Origin: Mycolicibacterium neworleansense | Lineage (GTDB): Bacteria; Actinomycetota; Actinomycetes; Mycobacteriales; Mycobacteriaceae | Direction of reading: 5' to 3' | Length of the DNA stretch: 64,000 bases | Assembly (NCBI RefSeq): GCF_001245615.1 | Contig: NZ_CWKH01000003.1 | Span: 868,001 to 932,000, forward strand | In this document: piece by piece, positions 1,263 to 3,793 of the stretch | How positions within the stretch are numbered: position 1 is the first letter of the stretch | Layout: each line of letters opens with the position of its first letter | Program-made: the position numbers and the translations under genes | The notes under the pieces: model-generated | Databases searched by the model: none | Told to the model about the DNA's origin: nothing | What the model saw: only the letters and a program-made list of their open reading frames with translations

Positions 1263-1681
1263 GTTCTTCGATGGTGCTGGCGATCGTGGTGCTCATCGCC
1301 GCGCTCGGGATCGCCTACGTGATCGGCCGCCTGATCACGCTGCGCGCCGGCACGCTCAAGGCCGGCGAAGAGGCCGCCAACGTCGACACCAGCGGTCTGG
1401 GGTTGTCGCAGACAGGCCCGACCGTCCTGCATTTCTCGGCCGACTGGTGTGGCCCGTGTGCCGGAGTGCGACGCGTCGTCGACCAGGTCTGCGCCGAGCT
1501 GCCCGATGTTGCGCACGTCGAGATCGACATGGACACCAATCCCGAAGCCGCCCGGCGGCTTTCGGTCCTGTCGCTGCCCACCACCATCATCTTCGACCGG
1601 GACGGGCGGCCCCGGTACCGCACCAGCGGGGTTCCCAAGGCCGCTGACCTGCGCTCGGCGCTGGAACCACTGTTGGCCTGA
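1259..1681 (+). CDS. thiX: Membrane-anchored thioredoxin ThiX
   Basis: A 140-aa protein with one N-terminal transmembrane helix (about residues 5-27) and a thioredoxin fold carrying the WCGPC active site (Cys64 and Cys67) and a cis-proline region SLPTT. It is expected to act as a disulfide reductase or oxidase at the membrane. Its ATG overlaps the lmeA stop codon by 4 nt. It corresponds to Rv0816c, and the sulfur-transfer operon starts immediately downstream, but a separate leaderless promoter at 1698 shows that the downstream genes have their own control. Confidence 0.9.
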   Translation: MSSSMVLAIVVLIAALGIAYVIGRLITLRAGTLKAGEEAANVDTSGLGLSQTGPTVLHFSADWCGPCAGVRRVVDQVCAELPDVAHVEIDMDTNPEAARRLSVLSLPTTIIFDRDGRPRYRTSGVPKAADLRSALEPLLA

Positions 1682-1697
1682 CTCCGCGGTTATTGGG

Positions 1698-1703
1698 TAA
1701 GCT
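1698..1703 (+). promoter_or_regulatory. Leaderless -10 element (TAAGCT) for the polycysteine sORF
   Basis: TAAGCT fits TANNNT and ends 7 nt before the GTG at 1711, the usual geometry when transcription begins at the first base of the start codon. No -35 is obvious. Confidence 0.7.
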
Positions 1704-1710
1704 GTGGCTC

Positions 1711-1800
1711 GTGTCAGCCCGCCTTGAGCTTGTGCTCACCAAGCGCCGCGCAGTGGATCTGTGCCGCGTCGCGGGTTGCTGCTGTTGTTGTTGCTGTTGA
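1711..1800 (+). CDS. Leaderless polycysteine leader peptide (cysteine attenuator)
   Basis: A 29-codon frame starting with GTG and ending in seven consecutive cysteine codons (1779-1797, TGC and TGT mixed) followed directly by TGA; one further Cys is at position 18. There is no room for a Shine-Dalgarno site and a -10 element sits 7 nt upstream, so it should be translated from a leaderless mRNA. Polycysteine sORFs of this type upstream of the same DUF4395/rhodanese/DUF1416 operon are described in M. smegmatis as cysteine-responsive attenuators: slow translation at the Cys run when cysteine is scarce exposes the downstream gene. The peptide itself probably has no function. Confidence 0.88.
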   Translation: MSARLELVLTKRRAVDLCRVAGCCCCCCC

Positions 1801-1808
1801 GGGCAGCC

Positions 1809-1847
1809 GCGCGCTTTCGCGCGCCCGCTCAGGCCTCGTGCCTGAGC
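1809..1847 (+). promoter_or_regulatory. Two tandem hairpins between polycysteine sORF and DUF4395 gene
   Basis: The first stem pairs 1809-1814 with 1819-1824 (GCGCGC, loop TTTC). The second pairs 1827-1834 with 1840-1847 (GCTCAGGC and its complement, loop of 5). They start 9 nt after the leader-peptide stop. Their place suggests a structure whose folding depends on ribosome position at the Cys codons; whether it ends transcription or hides a ribosome site is inference. Confidence 0.6.
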
Positions 1848-1890
1848 CTGCACACCATCAGACCTTCCACAACAACAGGAGTTCGTTTTC

Positions 1891-2385
1891 ATGTCATCGA
1901 CATCAACCCAGCCCATCACGGATGGCCGGCCCGCCCAGGTCGACGTTCGGGGTCCGCGGTTCGCGGCCTGGGTGACCACCGCGGTGCTGATCGCCACCCT
2001 GCTGGTCGCCGGGGTGAGCGCACCCGCGGCCGCGGTGCTGCTGGGTGTCCAGGCGGTGGTCTTCGCCATCGGCGCGGTCGGCGGCCCGCGCGCCCATCCC
2101 TACGGCCGGCTGTTCGCCACCTTCGTCGCCCCTCGGCTGGCTCCGGTCAGCGAGCGTGAGCCGGTGCCGCCACTGAAGTTCGCACAGTTGGTCGGCTTCG
2201 TGTTCGCTGTCGTCGGTACCGTCGGATTCGCTTTCGGCATCACCGCACTCGGCCTGACCGCCACGGCCTTCGCCTTGGTGGCGGCCTTCCTGAACGCCGC
2301 CTTCGGCATCTGCCTGGGCTGCCAGATCTACCCGCTGGTGGCGCGGTTGCGCCGTCCGGCAATCCGCGTGAACCAAACCGCCTGA
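1891..2385 (+). CDS. DUF4395 integral membrane protein
   Basis: A 164-aa protein with four predicted transmembrane segments (about residues 27-45, 47-65, 98-116 and 120-140) and a conserved C-terminal motif CLGCQIYPL. It heads the sulfur operon (DUF4395, thiosulfate sulfurtransferase, DUF1416) and lies behind the polycysteine attenuator, so a role in sulfur or thiol transport or in membrane thiol chemistry is likely, with the CxxC pair as candidate reactive site. The biochemical function is unknown. The ATG is preceded by ACAACAGGAG, a good ribosome site 8 nt away. Confidence 0.8.
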   Translation: MSSTSTQPITDGRPAQVDVRGPRFAAWVTTAVLIATLLVAGVSAPAAAVLLGVQAVVFAIGAVGGPRAHPYGRLFATFVAPRLAPVSEREPVPPLKFAQLVGFVFAVVGTVGFAFGITALGLTATAFALVAAFLNAAFGICLGCQIYPLVARLRRPAIRVNQTA

Positions 2386-2421
2386 CAACTCAAATCTGAA
2401 GCAACCGAAAGGAATTCGTAC

Positions 2422-3258
2422 ATGGCACGTTCCGACGTCCTGGTCTCGACCGAGTGGGCCGGGAACAACCTCGATACCCCCGGCGTGGTGTTCGTCGAGG
2501 TCGACGAGAACACCAGCGCCTACGACGACGAAGGCCACATCCCCGGCGCCGTCAAGCTCGACTGGAAGACCGACCTGCAGGACTCCGTCAAGCGTGACTT
2601 CGTCGACCAGCAGCAGTTCTCGAAGCTGTTGAGTGACAAGGGCATCAGCAACGACGACACCGTCATCCTGTACGGCGGCAACAACAACTGGTTCGCGGCC
2701 TACGCCTACTGGTACTTCAAGCTGTACGGCCACGCCGACGTGAAGCTGCTCGACGGCGGCCGCAAGCGCTGGGAGCTCGACGCGCGCCCGCTGGTCAAGG
2801 ACGCCGTCAGCCGTCCCGCCACGTCGTACTCGGCCAAGGCACCGGACAACAACATCCGCGCCTTCCGCGACGAGGTCATCGCCGCGATCGGTGAGAAGAA
2901 CCTGGTCGACGTGCGTTCGCCTGACGAGTTCTCCGGCAAGATCCTGGCCCCGGCGCACCTGCCGCAGGAGCAGAGTCAGCGCCCCGGACATATCCCGGGC
3001 GCCATCAACGTTCCGTGGAGCAAGGCAGCCAACGAGGACGGCACCTTCAAGTCCGACGAGGAGCTGGCCAAGCTGTACGCCGCGGCCGGCCTCGACGGCG
3101 AGAAGGAGACCATCGCCTACTGCCGGATCGGTGAGCGTTCCTCGCACACCTGGTTCGTGCTGCAGGAGCTGCTGGGACACCAGAACGTCAAGAACTACGA
3201 CGGCAGTTGGACGGAATACGGCTCCCTGGTGGGCGCCCCGATCGAGTTGGGAAGTTGA
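2422..3258 (+). CDS. cysA2: Thiosulfate sulfurtransferase (rhodanese), CysA2/SseA type
   Basis: A 278-aa protein with two rhodanese domains. The first (about 1-140) is inactive and the second (about 155-278) carries the active loop CRIGERS with catalytic Cys234. It should move sulfane sulfur from thiosulfate or 3-mercaptopyruvate to acceptors such as cyanide, thiols or sulfur carriers in the cytoplasm. The start is supported by GAAAGGAATT upstream. It is placed between the DUF4395 membrane protein and the DUF1416 protein, exactly as Rv0815c is with Rv0814c. Expression is probably under the cysteine attenuator at 1711. Confidence 0.93.
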   Translation: MARSDVLVSTEWAGNNLDTPGVVFVEVDENTSAYDDEGHIPGAVKLDWKTDLQDSVKRDFVDQQQFSKLLSDKGISNDDTVILYGGNNNWFAAYAYWYFKLYGHADVKLLDGGRKRWELDARPLVKDAVSRPATSYSAKAPDNNIRAFRDEVIAAIGEKNLVDVRSPDEFSGKILAPAHLPQEQSQRPGHIPGAINVPWSKAANEDGTFKSDEELAKLYAAAGLDGEKETIAYCRIGERSSHTWFVLQELLGHQNVKNYDGSWTEYGSLVGAPIELGS

Positions 3259-3259
3259 T

Positions 3260-3562
3260 ATGTGCTCTGCACCCAAGCAAGGACTGACGTTGCCGGCCGG
3301 CGTCGACCTGGAGAAGGAAACCGTCATCACCGGTCGTGTGGTGGACGGCTCCGGCCAGGCGGTCGGCGGTGCATTCGTGCGCCTGCTGGATTCCAGCGAC
3401 GAGTTCACCGCTGAGGTTGTGGCCTCGGCTACCGGTGACTTCCGCTTCTTCGCCGCTCCGGGCACCTGGACGCTGCGCGCCCTGTCCCCCGCGGGCAATG
3501 GCGACGCCAGCGTGGCCCCGGCCGGTGCCGGGATCCACGAGGTCGACGTCAAGGTCGCCTGA
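3260..3562 (+). CDS. sseC: DUF1416 protein, SseC family
   Basis: A 100-aa protein starting MCSAPKQGL and made of a predicted carboxypeptidase-regulatory-like beta sandwich (TGRVVDGSG, GAFVRLLD, GDFRFFAAPG). It begins 1 nt after the cysA2 stop codon and corresponds to the Rv0814c/SseC proteins that accompany rhodaneses in actinobacteria. Co-translation with the rhodanese suggests a partner or sulfur-acceptor role; Cys2 is the only cysteine and could carry sulfur, but this is inference. Confidence 0.85.
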   Translation: MCSAPKQGLTLPAGVDLEKETVITGRVVDGSGQAVGGAFVRLLDSSDEFTAEVVASATGDFRFFAAPGTWTLRALSPAGNGDASVAPAGAGIHEVDVKVA

Positions 3563-3573
3563 GACCGACCTGC

Positions 3574-3632
3574 CCGAACGTGGGCTTGTGTGCGCGTATT
3601 CGTACGTTTTTGGCACACAAGCCCACGTTCGG
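3574..3632 (+). terminator. Long perfect inverted repeat (20-bp arms) after sulfur operon
   Basis: Positions 3574-3593 are the exact reverse complement of 3613-3632, with a 19-nt loop containing a small CGTA/TACG stem and a T5 run. It starts 11 nt after the sseC stop. The length and perfection of the stem suggest a strong transcription end or an RNase III substrate; there is no U-tract after the second arm. Confidence 0.65.
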
Positions 3633-3681
3633 CGTGTATTGGGCGTGCCGACCCGGGGCGCCGACACCCTCGACTAGGAAC

Positions 3682-3687
3682 TAGACT
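3682..3687 (+). promoter_or_regulatory. Leaderless -10 element (TAGACT) for 32-aa membrane peptide
   Basis: TAGACT ends 7 nt before the GTG at 3695, so the transcript should start at the GTG. Confidence 0.65.
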
Positions 3688-3694
3688 TACTCCC

Positions 3695-3793
3695 GTGGTG
3701 CTCTTCTTCGAGATAATGCTCGTCGCGGCCGTCGTGGTCATCACGTGGTTCGCGTTGTACGCGGTGTACCGCCTCGTCACCGACGAGTCGTGA
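3695..3793 (+). CDS. Small membrane peptide, 32 aa
   Basis: A single-helix peptide: the hydrophobic stretch covers about residues 3-26 and ends in the polar tail YRLVTDES. It has no room for a ribosome site and its GTG lies 7 nt after a TAGACT -10 element, so it is probably leaderless. Its TGA overlaps the GTG of the nitrobindin gene by 4 nt (GTGA), so translation of this peptide may drive translation of the nitrobindin. I know no function; it may be a membrane anchor, a small regulator or a leader whose translation matters more than the product. Confidence 0.65.

Follow-up and report, generated by a model that had tools for sequence, protein, structure and literature searches.

A cysteine-rich leader peptide before the DUF4395, rhodanese and DUF1416 genes of Mycolicibacterium neworleansense: a probable translational attenuator of the Ms5788A kind

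Three consecutive genes near the left end of the window (the whole 64,000-nt stretch of Mycolicibacterium neworleansense DNA under analysis) encode a DUF4395 protein, a cysA2-like rhodanese or thiosulfate sulfurtransferase, and a DUF1416 protein, also called SseC; Pfam matches to all three bear out the operon that an initial annotation had placed there (Table 1). Upstream lie LmeA (447-1262) and a thioredoxin-like gene (1259-1681), followed by a short open reading frame that begins with GTG (1711-1713), ends with TGA (1798-1800) and closes on seven cysteine codons spelled TGC TGC TGT TGT TGT TGC TGT, so that direct reading agrees with the 29-codon frame and terminal cysteine run already described. 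Just past the DUF1416 gene, a perfect 20-bp inverted repeat with arms 19 nt apart (3574-3632) is possibly an operon-end structure, and is absent from the terminator-like sites reported by the terminator scan.

Table 1. The leader, its RNA features and the genes that follow, in positions of the window
Feature	Position	Strand	Basis or remark
Probable -10 element TAAGCT	1698..1703	+	7 nt before GTG; read from sequence
Leader ORF, 29 codons and TGA, probably leaderless	1711..1800	+	Ms5788A-family Cys-rich leader peptide; NCBIfam scores
Conserved peptide segment LTKRRAVDLCR, codons 9-19	1735..1767	+	core motif in 106/111 sequences upstream of DUF4395
In-ORF hairpin GCGCAG/UGGAU/CUGUGC over RAVDLC codons	1748..1764	+	arms fully paired in 101/101 leaders of the DUF4395 locus
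Seven Cys codons, codons 23-29, proposed sensor	1777..1797	+	direct reading
Switching helix (candidate), 5' arm, inside Cys tract	1779..1791	+	13-nt inverted repeat, 92% complementary to 1869-1881; MFE pairs
Third Cys codon, codon 25	1783..1785	+	position 13, with first Arg of RxHVDLxR as position 0
Hairpin 1, 6 bp GCGCGC, UUUC loop	1809..1824	+	static in model
Hairpin 2, 8 bp GCUCAGGC, CUCGU loop	1827..1847	+	static in model; no U-run after it
Switching helix (candidate), 3' arm, ACAACAACAGGAG, holding Shine-Dalgarno AGGAG (1877-1881) of DUF4395	1869..1881	+	inverted repeat; MFE pairs
DUF4395 gene, first after leader	1891..2385	+	PF14340, E 2.8e-43
Rhodanese / thiosulfate sulfurtransferase, cysA2-like	2422..3258	+	PF00581, E 3.1e-36, two stretches
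DUF1416 gene	3260..3562	+	PF07210, E 3.1e-43

The leader peptide belongs to a named family. Against the NCBIfam model NF042933 (Ms5788A family Cys-rich leader peptide) it scores 54 bits where the cutoff is 45, in a match that spans positions 1-27 of the 27 in the profile and shows no difference from the family, a profile of this kind saying nothing of function; against NF042934 (cis_reg_atten putative leader peptide) it scores 38.6 bits, the cutoff being 27. The three genes behind it give it the position of the NF042933 family, upstream of the cysA2/rhodanese operon. The element had been described as not usually annotated, which holds for the RNA, as none of 4227 Rfam models matched 1200-2600 at E<=1, and fails for the peptide, which NCBIfam covers. 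The RxHVDLxR core of its conserved segment is common to other actinobacterial leaders. Other poly-Cys runs found in the genome by pattern (L001, L002) were excluded as leaders by frame and context. The TAAGCT box before the GTG fits the mycobacterial -10 element, and a scan that permitted spacings of 5-8 nt found a TANNNT box 6-7 nt upstream of the GTG in all 101 non-identical leaders described below (7 nt in 96, 6 nt in 5). To judge from the sequence, the leader mRNA probably starts at the GTG itself; a sigma-70 two-hexamer scan found no promoter at the 1698..1703 box.

The leader is widespread. Among 148 sampled genomes of the same genus, 145 carry a match at E<=0.001, which in 119 lies above the NF042933 cutoff. 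The region upstream of DUF4395 was scanned in 111 sequences, comprising the window, 80 loci of named organisms and 30 further loci, the last group including the window once more (as L086) and a few records in duplicate; the nearest named DUF4395 protein, at 94%, is that of Mycolicibacterium septicum, in a ranking from which the species' own record may have been left out. The peptide motif stands upstream of DUF4395 in 106 of the 111, and the five sequences lacking it consist of one with a diverged form (L094) and four in which none was seen (L045, L064, L079, L091). Removal of five identical copies (L011, L086, L087, L090, L096) left 101 leaders, 79 of the mycobacterial type and 22 of another, with Rhodococcus, Rhodococcoides and Nocardia named among the latter; the duplex-shuffle, Shine-Dalgarno unpaired-probability and swap tests below divide the same set 78/23, one more leader (L051 in the first of these tests, L036 in the other two) having been placed with the others. 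Some mycobacteria thus show no leader before DUF4395, and in one such genome (G085; L091, L126) the leader is found at another site, before a putative rhodanese-like gene. The rhodanese, rather than DUF4395, may be the gene that the leader accompanies.

The system is already known, and is met here in another species. A 2020 study by Canestrari reportedly describes cysteine-responsive attenuation, and is said to invoke hiding of the ribosome-binding site. Shell 2015 (PMC4633059) describes a small ORF that precedes cysA2 / Msmeg_5788 and codes for a C-terminal cysteine cluster; it is conserved in mycobacteria and carries ribosomes in M. smegmatis, and the authors speculate on cysteine or redox control. 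The present leader, by gene order at the corresponding locus, shares with it the gene context, a small ORF (probably of a leaderless mRNA) ending in a cysteine cluster, and conservation among mycobacteria; the species differs, and the likeness is one of layout. This gene order and the named NCBIfam family uphold the earlier view that the locus has the layout of the mycobacterial cysteine attenuators. According to a 2026 paper (PMC13236596), which refers to the 2020 study, several cysteine genes of M. smegmatis have been shown to be under translation attenuation, and in a 2005 comparative study (PMC1262725) cysteine leader peptides were predicted before mycobacterial cys operons, without conserved terminator hairpins. 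The LEU element before leuA discussed there (PMC1262725) differs in having leucine codons and a proposed pseudoknot. The same genome holds a second Cys-rich leader, of the Ms4527A family (G000:C1:450360-450413, minus strand; ORF L117:1495-1587), which lies upstream of a nirA-like sulfite/nitrite reductase gene. It resembles the leader studied here in its RxHVD motif and cysteine cluster and scores 57 bits against a cutoff of 45 for NF042936 (nirA type), whereas its cysteine run is shorter, its score for NF042934 falls under the cutoff (21.6 vs 27), and the arms corresponding to the in-ORF hairpin pair in only 1/6 of such leaders.

The initial annotation missed a 13-nt inverted repeat joining the cysteine tract to the Shine-Dalgarno region of DUF4395 (1779-1791/1869-1881), whose 3' arm lies beyond the interval 1711..1847 that it covered. 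This is one of two inverted repeats of at least 12 nt, within 200 nt, in 1600-3720, and the search that found it is independent of the minimum-free-energy fold, in which the pairs 1779:1881, 1780:1880, 1782:1878 and 1783:1877 tie four of the five Shine-Dalgarno bases to the tract. The pairing recurs across mycobacteria: of the minimum-free-energy folds of the 79 mycobacterial leaders, 69 contain 8 or more pairs between tract and UTR, and in 66 the tract pairs with one or more bases of the Shine-Dalgarno sequence. The duplex of tract and UTR was better than shuffles that preserve the Shine-Dalgarno sequence (fraction <=0.05) in 57/78 mycobacterial leaders and in 2/23 others. Tracts and UTRs swapped among mycobacteria bound about as well as their own partners (own -22.08, foreign -21.70; the own pair surpassed the median swap in 34/78), and these figures are therefore no proof of covariation. 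Within the window, which is GC-rich and in which affinity for the tract is not rare, duplex energy was likewise unselective, 5,927 of 25,588 stretches of 30 nt binding the tract equally well.

The consequences of a ribosome on the leader were modelled by equilibrium folding with an assumed footprint of 28 nt. Averaged over the 79 mycobacterial leaders, the cost of opening the DUF4395 start region was 12.5 kcal/mol for the free RNA; a ribosome placed on codon 8 gave 13.3 kcal/mol, and one placed on any of the first five cysteine codons gave 7.8-8.1 kcal/mol. A stall on the third cysteine codon lowered the cost by 4.4 kcal/mol on average, and relief exceeded 1 kcal/mol in 72/79 leaders at the third codon and 71/79 at the fourth; the window's own leader went from 12.3 kcal/mol when free to 5.6-7.3 at cysteine codons 1-7. 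The start site is freed as well by a ribosome that has reached the stop codon (6.9 kcal/mol in the window), so that the model needs prompt release. The Shine-Dalgarno core itself gains little, its mean unpaired probability rising in the window from 0.21 to only 0.26-0.38, and across 78 leaders from 0.235 to about 0.27-0.31, because the core finds weaker partners. Among the 22 leaders of the other type mean relief was about 0.5 kcal/mol, exceeding 1 in 7-8/22, which leaves two readings, a helix largely confined to mycobacteria or different pairings in these leaders. Mycobacterial cysteine translational attenuators have among their features an mRNA structure that covers the ribosome-binding site of the following gene. 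In silico such a structure is present here, and a ribosome on the cysteine codons blocks it, although the shuffle control for the window is weak: UTR shuffles reached the observed relief in 5/30 cases for the window and in 0/30 for each of five other mycobacterial leaders, these six being the leaders tested.

Taken together, the locus is most likely a translational attenuator of the Ms5788A type that responds to cysteine. With Cys-tRNA plentiful, ribosomes would finish the leader ORF and depart, leaving the emptied cysteine codons at 1779-1791 to pair with ACAACAACAGGAG at 1869-1881 and so to hide the Shine-Dalgarno sequence of DUF4395; the twin hairpins would lie inside this helix, probably shortening the span that it has to bridge. 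When cysteine is scarce, a ribosome pausing on the cysteine codons would block formation of the helix, leave the start site open and allow translation of DUF4395, rhodanese and DUF1416. Sequence and model themselves establish the ORF, its family membership, the complementarity with its recurrence among mycobacteria, and the calculated fall in opening cost; the pausing, the response to cysteine and the sharing of control by all three genes would be expected by analogy with published work on M. smegmatis. In the model, the switch is thus the helix between cysteine tract and Shine-Dalgarno sequence and not the twin hairpins, which corrects the earlier idea and places the switch at one defined helix that a single reporter experiment could test.

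The leader RNA is strongly folded, the first 200 nt having a fold z of -3.6 with 0/200 shuffles as stable, and the tandem hairpins that the initial annotation reported behind the leader stop are indeed present, 8 nt rather than the claimed 9 nt beyond it. It had further proposed that these stems toggle, which the folding argues against: mean pair probability is 1.00 for hairpin 2 in all modelled states, and for hairpin 1 is 0.88-0.97 in the free RNA and the seven Cys-stalled states, dropping to 0.62 when the ribosome occupies the stop codon. The stems also vary among mycobacteria: in their minimum-free-energy folds, 40 of the 79 leaders enclose two hairpins of 4 bp or more, 31 enclose one, 7 none and 1 three. 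Strong GC-rich hairpins directly behind a leader ORF would suit a transcriptional attenuator, in which they, or Rho, stop transcription unless a ribosome is stalled on the cysteine codons, and the 2005 study (PMC1262725) proposed termination by Rho for cys operons of mycobacteria, a prediction that its authors themselves graded as rather weak. However, no U-run follows the hairpins, no terminator-like site was found on the + strand in 1600-3700, and the stems are nearly constant across ribosome states and variable among species. The terminator hairpin with U-run and the antiterminator of a trp-type transcriptional attenuator were not found, the hairpins being static, and with neither a + strand terminator-like site in 1600-3700 nor a change of the stems between the free and Cys-stalled states, a role of the pair as terminator or toggle was not supported; control of transcription in this manner is improbable. 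In the model the hairpins look like spacers that would bring the two helix arms together. Simple translational coupling, in which ribosomes leaving the leader would reinitiate at DUF4395 without any sensing of cysteine, accords with the position of the leader before DUF4395 and with the ribosome occupancy of its M. smegmatis counterpart as given in Shell 2015 (PMC4633059). It seems to us very improbable indeed, as 90 nt holding strong hairpins separate the leader stop from the DUF4395 start, and a cysteine tract with UGU spelling, which coupling does not need, recurs across mycobacteria.

Under the favoured reading of a translational attenuator, the tract would serve as RNA as well as coding sequence, and its spelling bears on that role. 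In the 79 mycobacterial leaders the cysteine codons after the motif are UGU in 335 of 524 cases (UGC in 189), compared with 17/161 in the first 160 codons of DUF4395 and 35/156 in the long GC3-rich frames of the window, and UGU is the codon that pairs best with ACAACAACAG. This preference for UGU over UGC suggests that cysteine spelling in the tract is under constraint at the RNA level. The in-ORF hairpin is a further element of this kind: at a site constrained to pair with U, 73/79 mycobacterial rows use the rare alanine codon GCA, which accounts for 154 of 1,961 alanine codons in the long frames of the window, and in the model the hairpin ends one base before the footprint of a ribosome with the second cysteine codon in its A site. 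Among 51 other leaders that lack a CCC run, its arms pair fully in 1, and a further 6 keep 5 of the 6 pairs; the hairpin was accordingly rejected as the shared basis of RxHVDLxR across the wider family, although it holds at the DUF4395 locus.

The wider family raises the alternative that the nascent peptide contributes, with RxHVDLxR in the exit tunnel pausing the ribosome at one cysteine codon in fixed register; the poly-Cys tract would then be a mycobacterial reinforcement, in addition to the helix switch and not in its place. Searches with NF042934 gave 70 loci and, with 3 repeats dropped and 8 loci in which the regular expression found none, 60 distinct peptides, 5 of the Ms5788A type and 55 not. 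The 55 have arginine at position 7 without exception, cysteine at position 13 in 54, and in 43 only one or two cysteines after position 7, and over the 60 leaders five different codons, AGG included, encode the position-7 arginine. The 54/55 at position 13 is not independent, as the HMM behind these leaders probably includes that cysteine, while the regular expression demands a cysteine after position 5, and many of the 55 come from related genomes. Position 13 is also cysteine in 101/101 leaders of the DUF4395 locus, which were chosen via the DUF4395 protein and by a motif that leaves this cysteine out; the neighbouring positions there are nearly all cysteine too (position 15 in 100/101), and part of the conservation lies at the RNA level, in the in-ORF hairpin. 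The fixed distance from motif to cysteine thus hints at a part for the nascent chain without proving it, and we consider such a contribution unlikely, if well short of negligible. If the spacing does reflect action of the nascent chain, it would explain cysteine sensing by single-Cys leaders in other actinobacteria.

A larger reading, slightly more doubtful still, would set the polycysteine leaders within a class of regulatory nascent peptides widespread in actinobacteria, RxHVDLxR-x5-Cys. Here the motif in the exit tunnel would sensitise the ribosome to the decoding (or thiol state) of one cysteine at a fixed distance, the seven-Cys tract being a later acquisition that doubles as an RNA lock on the next gene; cysteine would on this view be sensed by peptide and codon together, and not by counting codons alone. 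The fixed spacing is possibly the new part, searches of one open-access library having returned nothing on a nascent-chain role for RxHVDLxR with the queries used. For 20 of the 55 leaders, picked to differ from one another, the first long frame downstream had a Pfam match in every case: ABC substrate-binding protein or permease in five, luciferase-like monooxygenase in four, and rhodanese, dicarboxylate-type symporter and FMN or flavin reductase in two each; sulfite/nitrite reductase, cysteine dioxygenase, ThiS, ROK and 2OG-Fe(II) oxygenase occurred once each. Several clearly belong to sulfur metabolism, and a sulfur role for the others is a guess. One leader of the NF042934 type (L175) ends in RRHIDLLRVCSAI and a stop codon, exactly at what would be the position-13 cysteine.
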